IMG/VR virus record: IMGVR_UViG_3300048672_000845
Location: 1-26,997 of that record
From: a virus
Length of the DNA stretch: 26,997 nucleotides
Strand: one strand, 5' to 3'
Shown here: piece after piece, positions 158-21,975 of the stretch
Layout of the letters: each line of letters opens with the position of its first letter
How positions within the stretch are numbered: the stretch's first letter is position 1
Notes under the pieces: generated by a model
Told to the model about the DNA's origin: nothing
Databases searched by the model: none
The model's input: only the letters and a program-made list of their open reading frames with translations
Translations under genes and position numbers: made by a program

Positions 158-433
158 TTATTTGAACTCAATTGAAGATTCTGCGCCATTCTTTTCGATA
201 ACGCCAAGTACTCTAATTTTAAGGTCAGCACAATATCCGTTTTCGGCTACTACATAACCTTTGATAAAATCACGTGGCACAATTTGAACCACTTTCTCTT
301 TGCCCATTTCAAACTCTCCAGAGTCTTCATTTTGGATAATCTTATCTCTATCATAAGAGATTTTCAATTGATGGTCAAGTGTCAATTCGCTAAAGCTTTT
401 ATACACTGTTCCTGTTAATCTTTCCTTTGCCAT
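158..433 (-). CDS. Hypothetical 91-aa protein between portal and head genes
   Basis: The protein has 91 residues, is rich in beta-prone stretches and has no membrane segment or signal peptide. It is not recognised. Its ATG shares one base with the stop of the portal candidate (TAATG), so its translation is probably coupled to that gene. Short proteins between portal and scaffold or capsid in phage head operons are often decoration, connector or assembly factors; that is a positional guess only. It contains one cysteine and ends in ESSIEFK. Confidence 0.7.
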   Translation of the reverse strand: MAKERLTGTVYKSFSELTLDHQLKISYDRDKIIQNEDSGEFEMGKEKVVQIVPRDFIKGYVVAENGYCADLKIRVLGVIEKNGAESSIEFK

Positions 434-2271
434 TATTTTAAATTTTGATTGTTGTCCGTAAAACTTACTGGAGGGTTTACATTTAATTGTGTTACCTCTC
501 CAATTGGTTGCGATGGGTCTAATACATTAGCGAAATATTGTTCAAAAGTAGCGTCCATTAAAGCTATCTGATTATCTAAATCTAAATCAAATAACTTTGG
601 ATTGTCAAATAAGCATTGATTCAATATGGCATCAAAATACAACGACTTATCCAACTGCTTAATCATGAAAACATTTTGCACCGTCCCTCTGTTGCCTAGC
701 TGATAGCAACTAGACTTCATAAGTATTTTTTCTTGAGGGCTTTTTCCCCTGAAACTATCAAATCTCTTTTGCAATAAAAACTGTTTGTATTCCAAAGAAT
801 CAGCACCGCTTCTACTATCTAATAACTGAATACTAAATGTATCTTGCAACGCCTGAGGAAAGTTATTATTAATAGCGTCTTTTAGCTCAGTCCTTGTCTT
901 TTCAGCGTTAGTTACATCAAAGCGCATAGCCAGCGGAATAGAAGGACTATAGCCTTTATCTACGCCAAGAGTATAAATTAGCTCAGACACCTTGTAGAGC
1001 TTATGTAACAAAAACAAAAAGTGCTTCTCGTTATCAAGCAATATCTTTTTAAACTCTTCGCTATCTTGTTCTTTTGCTTTACCCGATTGACTTAGTGGCT
1101 GGTAGTTTAGATATTCCATACCACAACTTCTGTAGGTTGCGTCGTGCTCTTCATTGTACTCATTTCTGATAGTGTCAACACTTTCTTTAGGAAGTACAAC
1201 AAAACCAGCTGGAGGTGTTGGGATATTTACCGTTGGCGTATCATCAAAACCTTTCTGAACTGGAGGCGTTAGCAAAAGAACGTCCATTGAGCTGTCCCAA
1301 ACTTGCTTACCAGAACCGCCACAACTAGGGCAATTCACATCTACAAGTAATCCGTTTTCATTTTCAGCTTTTACCTTTCCAGTGCTACTACAAGTATCGC
1401 AACCGACTGTTTGAAACTGCCATTCTTTTGGATTTGCCAACTTAGAATTTACAATATCAAGGTCAGACTTTCTGCGAAGTGCAGTTCTTACGTGAGGCAG
1501 TGATTCTTGAATCTCCGAAGCAAATAACTCATAGAGTCCATCTTTTTCTATCTCTAAGATAGACTTACCAATCTTAAACGCTGGTAATTCTCCTGCATGG
1601 TGAAGTGTTGGCTCGCTATCGTAAGTAAATGACTTGACAGAATTTTGAGTTGCGATTAGATAACTGGTTTCATCAATAAATAAAACCTTAATACCTTTCT
1701 GACCGTTATCATATTCAACCTCTTCGTCAATAACCAAACAAGCAAATTTACCTTTTTGAAAATCAATAACTTCGTCAGCATCTACAATAAAAGGTTCAAT
1801 ATCTCTATTAGTAGATTGATCTACGCCTTCTTTTGGAATCAATGCAACTACTGAATTTGGCTTATTGATGTAGTGATTGCCTACGATAATATTCCAGAAA
1901 AACTCTTCAAGGTTGCCATAATTGCCAAATCTTTTCTCGACTAAGCTTTTGTATTCGTCTAAACCTTCAAGTCCTTCATTCCAAAGTACTGTATAGTCGT
2001 CGGCATTTCTAATGTTTCTTAGCGAGTTAGTAATACGCTTGAAAAAAGAAAGTAAGGTATTTTCAAAAGAATCTTTTCTATACTCTCTATGTTGCTTTTT
2101 TTCTTTCTTACAAGTTTTCTCAATAAACTTTGGAAGTTCAGTTTTTACACAATCTTCGATTTTTTCTTCAAGCTCAATAGAATCCTTATAAAACGGATGA
2201 GCCACCGCTTTATAGTTATTTTTCCCTTGGATAAGAGCTTCTAAATATTTCTGAAAAACATCTTTAATCAT
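433..2271 (-). CDS. Probable portal protein with a DnaJ-like zinc knuckle insertion
   Basis: The 612-residue protein is the longest in the left, head-like block. Length, an N-terminal helical region and a helical segment after residue 380 containing SGKAKEQDSEE resemble phage portal proteins, which form the dodecameric DNA channel at the capsid vertex; identification is from overall pattern, not a signature motif. Residues 291-320 hold two CxxC pairs in DnaJ style (CDTCSSTGK and CPSCGGSGK, Cys 291, 294, 314, 317), which should bind one zinc. This is followed by a Pro-rich linker (around 335-360) that may mark the switch from clip to stem/wing. It is followed by the 91-aa gene with a TAATG overlap. 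Alternatives are a minor head or another large virion protein. The portal call is moderate; the zinc knuckle is directly visible. Confidence 0.6.
   Translation of the reverse strand: MIKDVFQKYLEALIQGKNNYKAVAHPFYKDSIELEEKIEDCVKTELPKFIEKTCKKEKKQHREYRKDSFENTLLSFFKRITNSLRNIRNADDYTVLWNEGLEGLDEYKSLVEKRFGNYGNLEEFFWNIIVGNHYINKPNSVVALIPKEGVDQSTNRDIEPFIVDADEVIDFQKGKFACLVIDEEVEYDNGQKGIKVLFIDETSYLIATQNSVKSFTYDSEPTLHHAGELPAFKIGKSILEIEKDGLYELFASEIQESLPHVRTALRRKSDLDIVNSKLANPKEWQFQTVGCDTCSSTGKVKAENENGLLVDVNCPSCGGSGKQVWDSSMDVLLLTPPVQKGFDDTPTVNIPTPPAGFVVLPKESVDTIRNEYNEEHDATYRSCGMEYLNYQPLSQSGKAKEQDSEEFKKILLDNEKHFLFLLHKLYKVSELIYTLGVDKGYSPSIPLAMRFDVTNAEKTRTELKDAINNNFPQALQDTFSIQLLDSRSGADSLEYKQFLLQKRFDSFRGKSPQEKILMKSSCYQLGNRGTVQNVFMIKQLDKSLYFDAILNQCLFDNPKLFDLDLDNQIALMDATFEQYFANVLDPSQPIGEVTQLNVNPPVSFTDNNQNLK
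1321..1401 (-). other. Zinc-knuckle coding segment of portal candidate (CxxC-x19-CxxC)
   Basis: Two cysteine pairs 19 residues apart, each followed by a Ser/Thr-Gly-Lys turn (CSSTGK, CGGSGK), match the DnaJ cysteine-rich pattern CxxCxGxG in part. Four cysteines are enough for one tetrahedral zinc site. Confidence 0.65.
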
Positions 2272-17821: not shown

Positions 17822-17875
17822 GTCGGATTTTCTTTATATTTGTGCAGATAATAGTAAAAACGGATAGATATTTTT

Positions 17876-17908
17876 AAACCTCCCCTTGTTATAGAGGAGG
17901 TTTTTTTT
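17876..17908 (+). terminator. Hairpin between zinc-ribbon and tape measure genes, U-tract on the + strand
   Basis: AAACCTCC and GGAGGTTT form an 8-bp stem with a 12-base loop, followed by T8 only on the + strand. Leftward RNA has just UUUAAAAAU after the stem, so leftward read-through into the tape measure gene is expected. It could stop rightward antisense RNA, weaken leftward transcription, or protect the leader. Confidence 0.55.
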
Positions 17909-17913
17909 GTTGT

Positions 17914-18090
17914 TTACAGGATATAATATATTTTTTCGTAAAAATACTCTTTACATACTTTACACGAATAAGTCAATGGTTTGTCTTCCTTTTGTTTGTC
18001 TTCAAAAACATAAACTACACTTTTTGTTTTGCAATTTGGGCATTCTAAAGGAAATATTCTACCAAGTATTTTTCTAATTAACTTTGTCAT
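17914..18090 (-). CDS. 58-aa zinc-ribbon protein
   Basis: The visible features are MTKLIRKILGRIFPLECPNC, then CKVC at residues 43-46: two CxxC knuckles (Cys 17, 20, 43, 46) spaced 22 apart, as in rubredoxin/zinc-ribbon proteins. The N-terminus is basic. It lies between the 119-aa gene and the tape measure gene; the start overlaps by ATGA a 5-codon frame (18087-18104). The role is unknown; candidates are nucleic-acid binding or a structural zinc protein. The context makes a tail assembly role possible. Confidence 0.6.
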   Translation of the reverse strand: MTKLIRKILGRIFPLECPNCKTKSVVYVFEDKQKEDKPLTYSCKVCKEYFYEKIYYIL

Positions 18091-18105
18091 GTCGTTGGTT
18101 TCATG

Positions 18106-18465
18106 TTAAAATCCTGCTTCTTTTCTAAATTCAGTTTTTCTGGCTGTAAGTTTATCGAAATGCTCTTTTAGCTTAATTGGAATAGGTATAGCTACAACCC
18201 ATCTTAAATAAGGCAATATCCCAGCAAATCCAATACCCCAATGGTAATCAAGTACAAAAGAAAATTCAAACTGAAAGTTGTCTAATGTCCATATCTTAAA
18301 AAATAGCCACTTAAAACAAAAACTTTTTGTTTCGTAATAGTTAGCTTGTTTGATTCTTAAGTATGGCAACAGTGGAAATATAGAATCTTTACCAAACTCT
18401 TTTATATCAGTTTTTTCTTCTCTATAAACATTGCATTCGGCAGTCATTGGTTGTTTTGTTTTCAT
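18106..18465 (-). CDS. Conserved-looking 119-aa protein before the tape measure gene
   Basis: It has 119 residues, with an aromatic, beta-rich middle (CFKWLFFKIWTLDNFQFEF) and the run GIGFAGILPYLRWVV, then AIPIPIK. From memory, proteins with the GI.F.GILPYLRW signature occur in Bacteroidota phages next to the tape measure gene; no function is known to me. The ATG overlaps the stop of the gpT-like frame (ATGA, 18465-18462) and its leader is the A/C-rich CAACCGACGACATG. It lies where lambda-like phages have only the tape measure gene, so it may be a further assembly factor. The hydrophobic stretches are too interrupted to be sure of membrane spans. Confidence 0.7.
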   Translation of the reverse strand: MKTKQPMTAECNVYREEKTDIKEFGKDSIFPLLPYLRIKQANYYETKSFCFKWLFFKIWTLDNFQFEFSFVLDYHWGIGFAGILPYLRWVVAIPIPIKLKEHFDKLTARKTEFRKEAGF

Positions 18466-18824
18466 GTCGTCGGTTGTTTAAACTTCTTCTCAATAAACTC
18501 GGTTCGTTTCATAAACTCTAGTACTGTCAAGCTTTTGGCGTTCATAGTTCCGTTGTCTTCTAGTACACATACAAGTTCCTCAAATTGTTTCTCCTGAACC
18601 ACAAGGTAGTTGCTCGGTGAGCTAGTAAATATTTTCGGCTTCATTAAGCTAGTGAAATAATCGTATGCTTGTTGTAGTTGCTTTTGATGTACTTGACTTT
18701 CTGGTTCTAGTAATAATTGCAATTCAGCAAGCATTTTGCGCTTAATGTTACTGTAGTAGTTCAAGTCATTAGCTGTATCATTAGCAAACTTTTCAGGAAA
18801 ATAAATACCTAACTCGCTATCCAC
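18462..18824 (-). CDS. gpT-like frame of tail assembly chaperone, made by -1 frameshift
   Basis: This is a 120-codon frame, -1 relative to the 141-aa gene. It has no ATG start: the first codon is GTG, which is exactly the codon read after a slip on A AAA AAG at 18830-18824. The fusion would be 137 + 120 = 257 residues, close to lambda gpGT (279). The sequence starts VDSELGIYFPEKFAND and is helical; it ends FIEKKFKQPTT. In lambda, gpG and gpGT bind the tape measure protein and the tail tube protein during tail assembly, and their ratio is set by the frameshift. Here the gene precedes the tape measure gene by two small genes. Confidence 0.85.
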   Translation of the reverse strand: MDSELGIYFPEKFANDTANDLNYYSNIKRKMLAELQLLLEPESQVHQKQLQQAYDYFTSLMKPKIFTSSPSNYLVVQEKQFEELVCVLEDNGTMNAKSLTVLEFMKRTEFIEKKFKQPTT

Positions 18825-19234
18825 TTTTTTCTAATATCCTCGAGTGCCTCCTCCACGTCTCCCTGTGATACCTGTGTTTCCTCTAGTAGCCTTAAGCATT
18901 CCTCCTGCTCAATATCATTGTCAATATCACCCACTTTTCGGTCATTGATACTATAACACAACGCCAAAAAAGCGTTTGATTGATAATTAATGCCTTCCAA
19001 CATCGACCAGAATAATACGTGTAGATTCTCACGTTCCTGTAGTGCTTCTTGTATCTTATTGCCACGCAGGAAAGTATCTAGCTTTGCGAAGTGCTTGCTT
19101 ATGGCGTTCAAGTCAGATCCAATACCTGAATCTTGTATCAAGGCTCTATTGAAAGCATTATACCGCTTAATCGGCAAGTCTCGAATACTATCATACAGTA
19201 TTATTTTGCCGTTCGTGGCTTGTATAGTTTTCAT
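18809..19234 (-). CDS. gpG-like tail assembly chaperone
   Basis: From the ATG at 19234 the protein has 141 residues, almost the same length as lambda gpG (140). The start overlaps the previous stop by ATGA, with a strong AAGGGGG upstream; an upstream TTG (19303) would overlap the previous gene by 73 nt and was rejected. Near its N-terminus it has YDSIRDLPIKRYNAFNRAL, a pattern I recall from Bacteroidota phages before the tape measure gene; the C-terminus is acidic and ends in RKKWIAS. The slippery site lies five codons before the stop. It is expected to coat the tape measure protein during tail assembly. Most ribosomes should make this short form, a few the fusion. Confidence 0.85.
   Translation of the reverse strand: MKTIQATNGKIILYDSIRDLPIKRYNAFNRALIQDSGIGSDLNAISKHFAKLDTFLRGNKIQEALQERENLHVLFWSMLEGINYQSNAFLALCYSINDRKVGDIDNDIEQEECLRLLEETQVSQGDVEEALEDIRKKWIAS
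18824..18854 (-). promoter_or_regulatory. Slippery heptamer A AAA AAG with upstream SD-like sequence
   Basis: The gpG frame reads AGA AAA AAG TGG, and the heptamer A AAA AAG lies at 18830-18824. GGAGGAGG (18854-18847) and CGAGGA (18842-18837) lie 6 to 16 nt before it, the layout that stimulates -1 slippage in E. coli dnaX. No clear downstream hairpin was found by eye. Confidence 0.85.
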
Positions 19235-19506
19235 AGTGTACCCCCTTGACAAGCGTTCACTAATTCGACCAATTCCGGTGCCGACATTGGAATTATAAAG
19301 CAAGAACCTCCACTACAAATAGTACTAGCCTTTTCGGTAAATCCTTTGTGTGGCGTAATACTCGATACTTCATAAAAATAGCCGTAATCAATATCGTAAT
19401 CAGAGATTGACAACTTAGCATCTAAGCCAAGTAATTCATTTGTTTTTTCTTGCTGTTCAGCGTATTCACTATAATACACTACAGGTAATTTAATTGGATT
19501 TTTCAT
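19231..19506 (-). CDS. Hypothetical 91-aa protein between the two frameshift pairs
   Basis: The 91-residue protein has an N-terminal region (YYSEYAEQQEKTNELLGLD) and a beta-rich, aromatic centre (YDIDYGYFYEVSSI). Residues about 62-88 are Ser/Gly- and Val-rich with three cysteines (CSGGSCFIIP, NACQGG). It is not recognised. It starts 4 nt after the stop of the -1 frame at 19511 and ends by ATGA overlap into the gpG-like gene, so it is part of the same cluster. A partner of the chaperones or a small tail protein is possible. Confidence 0.65.
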   Translation of the reverse strand: MKNPIKLPVVYYSEYAEQQEKTNELLGLDAKLSISDYDIDYGYFYEVSSITPHKGFTEKASTICSGGSCFIIPMSAPELVELVNACQGGTL

Positions 19507-19510
19507 AAAA

Positions 19511-19801
19511 TTATTGTTTACGGTTAGCTCTCTCTTTCTCTTCCCTAATCTTATCTAATCTATACTGGAAATAGACGTGGAAATCTTCTGCACTGCCTTC
19601 AAGTAATCGGCAAAGCTTGTCAAGGTCTCCATCCGTAATTTTAAGTAATTCTCTTCTTCTGGAGTCAACTCTACCGCCAAGATACTCGACAAAAGACTCA
19701 TATTGTTGAGGCGCTGTAGTTGAACGTCGTCCGCTGTAAATTTCAGGAAATCGCTGTCTGAAAGAGTCGGAAACGGATTCCAAATATTTTGTGTAAACGA
19801 T
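19511..19801 (-). CDS. -1 frame of upstream pair, candidate C-terminal extension by frameshift
   Basis: After the slip at T TTT TTA the -1 frame runs 96 codons (IVYTKYLESVSDSFRQRF to EKERANRKQ). A TGA at 19813-19811 closes it just three codons upstream of the run, and no ATG lies near its start; TTG at 19783 is the only candidate start. The fusion would be 152 + 96 = 248 residues. The C-terminus has a basic/acidic helix (YRLDKIREEKERANRKQ). If made, it gives the same N-terminal domain another tail, as in lambda gpGT. Unlike lambda, the zero frame stays open for 81 codons beyond the slip, so about 245 nt code in two frames. Confidence 0.65.
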   Translation of the reverse strand: MVYTKYLESVSDSFRQRFPEIYSGRRSTTAPQQYESFVEYLGGRVDSRRRELLKITDGDLDKLCRLLEGSAEDFHVYFQYRLDKIREEKERANRKQ

Positions 19802-20256
19802 AAAAAAAAATCATTCAACTTTGGATGTTTCAAAAACTGCTGTTTCTTTTCTTCGGTAATCTCCTTATTGACGCGTGACGGGTTTTCTCCATGGCGGATA
19901 AACCAAAGTGCTGCCACATCAAAAACTCTTTCATACAAGAATCCTACTTCCGTTTGGCGCTTCATACTTGTAGCAATACCTATACCCTCAGTTGCTAGTG
20001 CGTTGATTTCCTTTGGATTATTGACATTGTTCATGATACGCTGAAACAGCCCAACAAACACGCCAAGATTGAAATCTAGGTCTTCCTTTTTGAGCACCCA
20101 GTTTGCGTGCTCTGTCATAATATCCGAAAATGCAAAAAGTCTTTCTTGTGACAACTTTGCGCCGTTTTCGGCAAACTGGTAGTAAGGAACACTATCGATG
20201 ACAAAAATTGGCTTTTCGCTTAAAATGTTTTCTTGGATAGCCTGTTCAAAGGTCAT
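19555..20256 (-). CDS. 233-aa protein of upstream frameshift pair
   Basis: The protein has 233 residues: N-terminal EQAIQENILSEKPIFVIDSVPYYQF-type strands, a helical core (about 85-150; VGFLYERVFDVAALWFIRHGEN is conserved-looking) and the slip at codon 152 (Leu, TTA). The zero-frame tail (residues 153-233, ending SFADYLKAVQKISTSISSID) is also protein-like. The ATG overlaps the 93-aa gene stop by ATGA. Position just upstream of the chaperone and tape measure genes suggests a tail or neck role. Whether zero-frame or -1 tail, or both, are made is unknown; a homopolymer error in T9 could produce one false frame. Confidence 0.7.
   Translation of the reverse strand: MTFEQAIQENILSEKPIFVIDSVPYYQFAENGAKLSQERLFAFSDIMTEHANWVLKKEDLDFNLGVFVGLFQRIMNNVNNPKEINALATEGIGIATSMKRQTEVGFLYERVFDVAALWFIRHGENPSRVNKEITEEKKQQFLKHPKLNDFFLSFTQNIWNPFPTLSDSDFLKFTADDVQLQRLNNMSLLSSILAVELTPEEENYLKLRMETLTSFADYLKAVQKISTSISSID
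19801..19810 (-). promoter_or_regulatory. Slippery heptamer T TTT TTA in a T9 run
   Basis: The zero frame reads GAT TTT TTT TTA TCG; T TTT TTA (19807-19801) matches the HIV-1 type heptamer. The -1 frame opens right after TGA (19813-19811). T9 is also a site prone to sequencing indels. Confidence 0.6.
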
Positions 20257-21588: not shown

Positions 21589-21975
21589 CTAGATACTTGA
21601 TAACTTCCTATATATCTCCCTTGTAATATACCCTTGCAAATAACAAAAAGCCTCTGAATTTTTAACATTTATTTCAATTTCAAGACTCTCTAATATGCTT
21701 ATCACTGCATGCGATATTTCATGTTGTAATGACGAATATTCGAAATTACTTACTGGAATCTTTGGCATCCAAATAATTACGTCTGGATAGCAAACTTGGT
21801 CTATTGCTAGTCCAGATGCGTTCCTGAATTTGTCTAAATATAATTCATCTAAATTACATTCGAACTTTTTTTCAATATACCCTTTAAGCTCTTCTATCTT
21901 ATAGCCAAACGAAAAAAGTATTGATCTGTGATATATATCCAAATTGACTATATGCGAAAATTTTGTAACTGTCAT
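21589..21975 (-). CDS. Small HExxH zincin-like protein
   Basis: The 128-residue protein has the zinc protease motif HEISH (His85, Glu86, His89) within QHEISHAVISIL, and after a loop SEAFCYLQGYI (Glu108), which places a third ligand as in gluzincin-type metallopeptidases. The N-terminal 80 residues carry no signal peptide or membrane span. Similar small HExxH proteins with an EA..YL.GY tail occur in phage genomes (recall). The role could be a head-maturation or tail-processing protease, or a zinc-stabilised structural protein; the context (head-tail connectors) favours a virion assembly role. Size is below that of most proteases, so activity is unproven. It starts 1 nt after the previous stop. 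Confidence 0.7.
   Translation of the reverse strand: MTVTKFSHIVNLDIYHRSILFSFGYKIEELKGYIEKKFECNLDELYLDKFRNASGLAIDQVCYPDVIIWMPKIPVSNFEYSSLQHEISHAVISILESLEIEINVKNSEAFCYLQGYITREIYRKLSSI

Follow-up and report, generated by a model that had tools for sequence, protein, structure and literature searches.

The gene at 18462..19234 (minus strand) of the viral record IMGVR_UViG_3300048672_000845 (26,997 nucleotides, analyzed over its whole length and referred to here as the window) appears to be a tail assembly chaperone-like gene, from which two proteins sharing their first 137 residues would be produced. Translation in the zero frame would yield a short product of 141 amino acids, with a long product of 257 amino acids arising when the ribosome slips by −1 at the heptamer A_AAA_AAG. 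Judged from sequence comparisons, −1 ribosomal slippage at this heptamer was the most likely reading of the gene, with a probability of about 0.68, and we infer that both products are made and that the ribosome slips at this site. The window would thus hold a diverged member of the phrog_8914 family whose frame relation is flipped with respect to its continuous relatives. In most members of this family, the long product would be made by default and slippage on a run of 9 to 11 A's (A9 to A11) would give the short one.

The G-like ORF runs from an ATG at 19234 to a TAG at 18811-18809, and the heptamer lies in its zero-frame register, after which the zero frame reads TGG ATA GCG AGT TAG. In the −1 frame, the junction consists of a TAG (18833-18831) followed by AAA AAA GTG, and the frame then remains open to 18462, such that the T-like frame opens between this TAG and the stop codon of the G-like ORF. 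Because the −1 frame is closed just upstream and open from the heptamer onwards, the region where frames could be switched covers only a few codons, with the heptamer inside it. An X_XXY_YYZ heptamer therefore sits in zero-frame register within the overlap of two ORFs related by −1. The initial annotation, made from the letters of the window, had proposed a programmed −1 frameshift here. The heptamer, its register and its coordinates, a second frame that is −1, lacks an ATG at its start and opens at the slip site, and product lengths of 141 and 257 amino acids (137 + 120) were all confirmed by translation, and in this sequence the second half can be reached only by a −1 shift at A_AAA_AAG.

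Table 1. Features of the window around the phrog_8914 gene
Feature	Coordinates	Strand	Evidence or remark
Tape measure protein, TMP_3, 1708 aa	12695..17821	-	Pfam PF20155, E value 3.9e-18
119-aa ORF overlapping the T stop (ATGA)	18106..18465	-	Not in L106; no family match
T-like half, -1 frame, 120 aa after KK, no ATG at start	18462..18830	-	phrog_8914 C-terminal domain
G-like ORF, 141 aa, predicted short product	18809..19234	-	Translation; phrog_8914 positions 1-136; tblastn
Slippery heptamer A_AAA_AAG, zero-frame register	18830..18824	-	Coincides with the A9-A11 tract of relatives
TAG in -1 frame directly 5' of the slip site, bounding the shift region	18831..18833	-	
91-aa ORF overlapping the G start	19231..19506	-	L106 has a 93-aa ORF in the corresponding position, 30% identical
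Native pair, zero-frame ORF, 233 aa	19555..20256	-	96% identical in L106; 30-32% in L107, L108 and L110
Native pair, -1 extension	19511..19810	-	Entered at T9 tract 19810..19802 (T_TTT_TTT)

A_AAA_AAG belongs to an efficient class of −1 heptamers. The string AAAAAAG is no commoner in the window than expected by chance (25 observed, 21.9 expected), and across the ORFs of the window, A/T-type slippery heptamers occur in register at 0.33% of codon steps. For a given 6-codon stretch of these ORFs, the probability of an in-frame A/T-type heptamer was ∼0.02 and that of A_AAA_AAG ∼0.004. The position of the heptamer is not accidental, as it coincides exactly with the site of the A9 to A11 tract conserved in relatives.

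Both halves of the gene are covered by phrog_8914, a virion structural protein family of 250 positions, and meet at the heptamer. Profile positions 1 to 136 matched the G-like ORF (E value, 1.4e−27) and positions 138 to 248 matched the T-like half (E value, 7.4e−10). Since these ranges are consecutive, the two ORFs represent the halves of one protein family. Using tblastn, matches to the G half were identified in 77 phage records (Bacteroides, Parabacteroides, Alistipes, Flavobacterium, Elizabethkingia, and Croceibacter phages) and matches to the T half in 11. A single-sequence scan of viral contigs with the G protein of the window returned no relative, a DNA-level search of the phages collection gave no match, and phrog_8914 was matched in only 3 of the 395 Bacteroidota-level genomes searched. 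Homologues were collected from annotated phages, from IMG/VR using two different queries, the second of which consisted of patterns from the G half only and so was unbiased towards the tract, and from bacterial genome records. The resulting set comprised 142 distinct proteins from Bacteroidota-type phages, including the window, whose closest homologue shared 33% identity. Phage contigs of this group (L098, L100, L101, L103, L104, and L105) had been binned into Propionibacterium, Alphaproteobacteria, Bacillota, Clostridia, and archaeal MAGs, which are probably binning errors.

A continuous single ORF was found in 130 of the 142 distinct homologues (L009 and L010 were counted as continuous from their translations, as their T match was spurious). 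A −1 step was needed in 11 (L007, L103, L104, L126, L141, L142, L145, L147, L155, L163, and the window) and a +1 step in one, Croceibacter phage P2559S (L171), which carries A8. We placed no weight on the +1-type frame of P2559S, which may be a sequencing or indel variant, given that its near copy L147 has A9; the two hold nearly the same Croceibacter phage gene and differ by either a sequencing error or a real indel. L155 is close to L141, but a base upstream is missing and an A10 run is present with a zero-frame TAA at the tract, and this junction may be an assembly error. With 130 members continuous, slippage in most relatives would yield the short product, not the long one. As to whether related phages keep A AAA AAG together with a −1 frame, a slippery A tract lies at the same place nearly everywhere, but it is the A9 to A11 homopolymer that is kept and not the heptamer as such, and the −1 arrangement is confined to the 11 members listed. 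Relatives with a start codon for the second frame or with no slip site had been named as grounds for rejecting the frameshift; the relatives gave no such grounds, having a longer slippery run at the junction.

Among the 130 single-ORF members, the junction is A9, A10 (the great majority), or A11 in 129, and the exception, L158, is continuous with A6G (GTA AAA AAG AGG). The typical junction, GTC AAA AAA AAA AT(A/T/C) GA, encodes Val-Lys-Lys-Lys-Ile and has either a +1 stop straight after the tract (ATA G, giving TAG) or a −1 stop (ATT GA, giving TGA). When members were grouped into 66 clusters (<70% identity), the three Lys codons of the tract were AAA in 196 cases and AAG in 1, compared with 800 AAA and 676 AAG (54% AAA) at Lys positions elsewhere in these genes. 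After allowing for the codon usage of each gene, the excess of AAA corresponded to a log10 P of ∼−62, for clusters that are not fully independent. Other A/T runs of at least 9 bases were rare, with only 5 in 331,687 bases of these loci. The AAA bias and the rarity of such runs indicate that the tract is kept as nucleic acid, beyond the needs of the protein. Synonymous codons are conserved elsewhere in the gene too, with z scores down to −7 just upstream of the tract, and given this conservation, part of the codon signal of the tract may have other causes. The Val codon before the tract (e.g., L003 2891-2893) is GTC or GTT, with a preference for GTC, and never GTG, though GTG is the commonest Val codon gene-wide.

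The stop codons that follow the tract were compared with those in synonymous shuffles. A +1 stop within 5 codons was present in 58 of the 66 single-ORF clusters (shuffles, 42.4 ± 3.4), an excess that along the gene peaks exactly at the tract (z = 4.2), and both shifted frames were closed within 5 codons in 40 clusters (shuffles, 23.8 ± 3.5). Stops in the −1 frame were at chance level (42 clusters; shuffles, 39.9 ± 3.5). As the excess concerns +1 stops and joint closure of the two frames, not −1 stops alone, it argues against −1 ribosomal slippage as the only source of the short form in continuous members, where RNA polymerase, the ribosome, or both could produce it. Given the synonymous conservation elsewhere in the gene, the stop excess is supportive and not decisive. 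Stops in the +1 frame just upstream of the tract were strongly depleted in phrog_8914 genes.

RNA polymerase also slips on homopolymers as long as A9 to A11, and ribosomes, too, can be shifted by poly-A runs. The rate of insertion by RNA polymerase rises exponentially with the length of an A/T run (PMC5574713), and in Thermus thermophilus dnaX, polymerase slippage at 9 A's suffices and yields the short product (PMC5009743). An A/T homopolymer of about 9 or more, the criterion for programmed transcriptional realignment, is present in 129 relatives; the window has A6. Programmed transcriptional realignment is accordingly put forward as a possibility for the phrog_8914 family and not for the window. 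By the same findings, the tract of the family would be long enough for polymerase slippage to have made the shift in the window as well, but only 6 A's are left there, flanked by G on both sides, and we regard a shift by RNA polymerase in place of the ribosome as very improbable for this gene. Erosion would have reduced the run of the window to A6G, on which polymerase could not slip efficiently but which forms an efficient class of −1 heptamer for the ribosome.

Split members were interleaved with continuous ones in a tree of 97 sequences, with 7 changes of state, at least 5 of them forced by well-supported (starred) branches. L163/L141 and L126, which belong to a diverged clade, keep the −1 split over long branches, and this persistence indicates that splitting is stably maintained and does not arise through error alone. 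The junction of L141 (GTA AAA AAA AAG TGG) is A9G, contains A_AAA_AAG and is split; together with L158, it would resemble a step on the way from an A10 run to the window heptamer. The end branch of the window is long (1.62 changes per column) and its placement in the tree is unsure. Despite this branch of ∼1.6 changes per column, its T half is still open and homologous.

Homopolymers are indel hot spots, and one base missing from an A run would look identical to the layout seen here. The split in the window could accordingly reflect an indel in a hypermutable A run of an unneeded gene, or a one-base assembly error, with no functional slippage. The A9 and A8 versions of the Croceibacter phage gene are what error or neutral indels would give, the lineage of the window already has a slip pair of its own upstream (described below), and a near relative, L106, whose terminase is 97% and tape measure 85% identical to those of the window (the latter over the first 976 residues), has no copy of the gene, which may therefore be dispensable and free to decay. 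The searches gave no homologue of the window gene closer than 33% identity in which the heptamer could be seen to be kept, which also counts against the −1 slip. However, the tract of the window is not merely one A short; it also has an A-to-G change, with an efficient heptamer still in register, the two halves are free of other stops over 257 codons despite great divergence, and split forms are stable in other lineages. Decay or error was thus considered unlikely, and −1 ribosomal slippage at A_AAA_AAG is preferred.

Two further elements upstream of the window heptamer, GGAGGAGG and CGAGGA, had been proposed as Shine-Dalgarno (SD)-like stimulators. This proposal was not upheld: neither was seen at the same place in the relatives examined, and Bacteroidia ribosomes fail to recognize SD sequences (PMC9976891), which would apply here if the host of the window is a member of the Bacteroidia. 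RNA structure downstream of the heptamer was nothing unusual in the window (z = 0.04), and none was detected downstream of the tract in the family (mean z, −0.12). The lack of both a conserved stimulator and a downstream structure counts against a −1 slip in the window. Translation of the T-like ORF by reinitiation or coupling from the GTG at 18824, 11 bases downstream of which lies the G stop, would instead give a separate 120-amino-acid protein. This appears highly unlikely, as the T half forms one ORF with the G half in 130 of the 142 distinct relatives, no start codon is conserved in any split relative, and SD sequences are not used by Bacteroidia ribosomes.

The pair upstream of the phrog_8914 gene was found in five genomes of the window lineage as an ORF of 233 to 238 amino acids with a T7 to T9 tract in register (T_TTT_TTT). 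In all five, the −1 frame stays free of stops from the tract across the whole 80- to 83-codon overlap and beyond, with predicted fusions of 246 to 277 amino acids (247 amino acids and an 83-codon overlap in the window). Synonymous shuffles kept this frame open in only 0 to 10 of 5000 trials in each genome. Between the window and L106, third-position changes fell from 42 in ∼149 codons to 7 in ∼81 codons inside the overlap, and the −1 product of the window matched that of L107 (E value, about 1e−5). No tblastn match to the pair was found in the phages collection, profile comparison revealed no homology to phrog_8914, and an AlphaFold model of the 233-amino-acid protein (pLDDT, 42) was too poor to use. 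From these sequence features, the native pair (20256..19511) is by itself a strong candidate for −1 frameshifting and is better supported as a −1 slip pair than the phrog_8914 gene.

Neither the phrog_8914 G/T gene nor the 119-amino-acid ORF is present in L106, and neither was detected by tblastn in L107 and L108. Where the window has 19506..17822, L106 (7940-8313) has no G/T gene, no 119-amino-acid ORF, and a diverged allele of the 91-amino-acid ORF, and this difference would be a cassette exchange between close phages. With a native slip pair just upstream and the gene missing from the nearest relative, the phrog_8914 gene in the window is probably a second, extra or acquired chaperone-like pair, and the argument that its frameshift has to be functional loses force. 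Elsewhere in the window, a 128-amino-acid protein (21589..21975, minus strand) carries an HExxH-like motif (HEISH), matches phrog_1365 (E value, 2e−12), and has no match in L106. A 612-amino-acid protein (433..2271, minus strand) with a zinc-ribbon-like CxxC...CxxC motif (CDTCSSTGKV...CPSCGGSGK) is possibly a portal protein.

Tail assembly chaperones usually lie directly before the tape measure gene, and in the gpG/gpGT type, the G part binds the tape measure and the T part the tail tube protein, with neither found in the virion. In annotated relatives, the phrog_8914 gene usually precedes the tape measure gene immediately (e.g., L003, L004, L007, L008, L012, L015, L016, and L017); in the window, the 119-amino-acid ORF and about 280 bp lie between them. 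In Flavobacterium phage 1/32 (L007), the gene is annotated as a tail assembly chaperone with a frameshift-joined longer form. A model of a family member was good (mean pLDDT, 90.7) and showed a beta hairpin with helices after it, the KKK tract lying within a long helix (residues 121 to 142) that joins the G and T halves. No significant match to a solved structure was found for this model in the PDB. The confident matches in BFVD, at 246 and 158 residues, were equal in length to the two products of phage 1/32, and named tail chaperones appeared among the BFVD matches only at E values of 0.66 and 2.2. As no solved structure was matched confidently, the chaperone role rests on gene place, the two-product layout, and annotation, from which we infer that phrog_8914 products are tail chaperones. 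The gpG/gpGT-like identity given in the initial annotation agrees with both halves belonging to one family and with the location of that family before the tape measure gene in relatives, but a split gene is unusual in this family (11 of 142).

The reversed wiring of phrog_8914, with a long default product and a short one predicted to arise by slippage, is well supported as an arrangement. A broader proposal is that these mostly gut and marine Bacteroidota-type siphophages set the pair by A9 to A11 slippage in a single ORF, probably by RNA polymerase, with the long form as default, that lineages switch between this and a lambda-type −1 arrangement by gain or loss of one A, and that the window has moved to a ribosomal heptamer; we consider the chances of this proposal evenly balanced. 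The local −1 layout of the window is of a known kind, and what is new is the inverted wiring of the family together with its conserved A9 to A11 run. A large phage group with a long default and a hard-conserved A10 run offers a natural case in which one two-product gene would be served by different recoding routes with repeated switches. Most phrog_8914 genes are annotated as encoding one protein, so the predicted short product would have been overlooked. Within the open-licence literature, where absence carries little weight, no paper was found that connects slippage with the tail chaperones of Bacteroides phages.

In lambda, tail assembly is set by how much short chaperone is present relative to the long one. 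The window gene is like lambda gpG/gpGT in its shared N terminus, a −1 slip late in the first ORF, and similar sizes (141/257 versus 140/279, the lambda figures being those of the initial annotation), and the family shares the place upstream of the tape measure gene. Unlike in lambda, most relatives have the long form by default and a slip would make the short form, and no sequence or fold link between gpG/gpGT and phrog_8914 was detectable. Continuous phrog_8914 members resemble T. thermophilus dnaX, which has a one-ORF long product, a homopolymer of at least 9, and early stops in both other frames (PMC5009743), but the protein and its role are different, slippage in the phages is predicted only, and the window lacks the long run. 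Escherichia coli dnaX uses the same heptamer, A_AAA_AAG, and its shift makes the short product, as would be expected for L158, whereas in the window the shift would yield the long product and no downstream stem-loop was found. In layout only, the native pair is comparable to gp17.5/gp17.5* of Bacillus phage SPP1, which has a U-rich heptamer well inside the first ORF and a long two-frame overlap (PMC6316719). Within the family itself, F132_37/F132_38 of Flavobacterium phage 1/32 are annotated as a chaperone and its frameshift-joined form, and differ from the window in having an A10 tract and not A6G.
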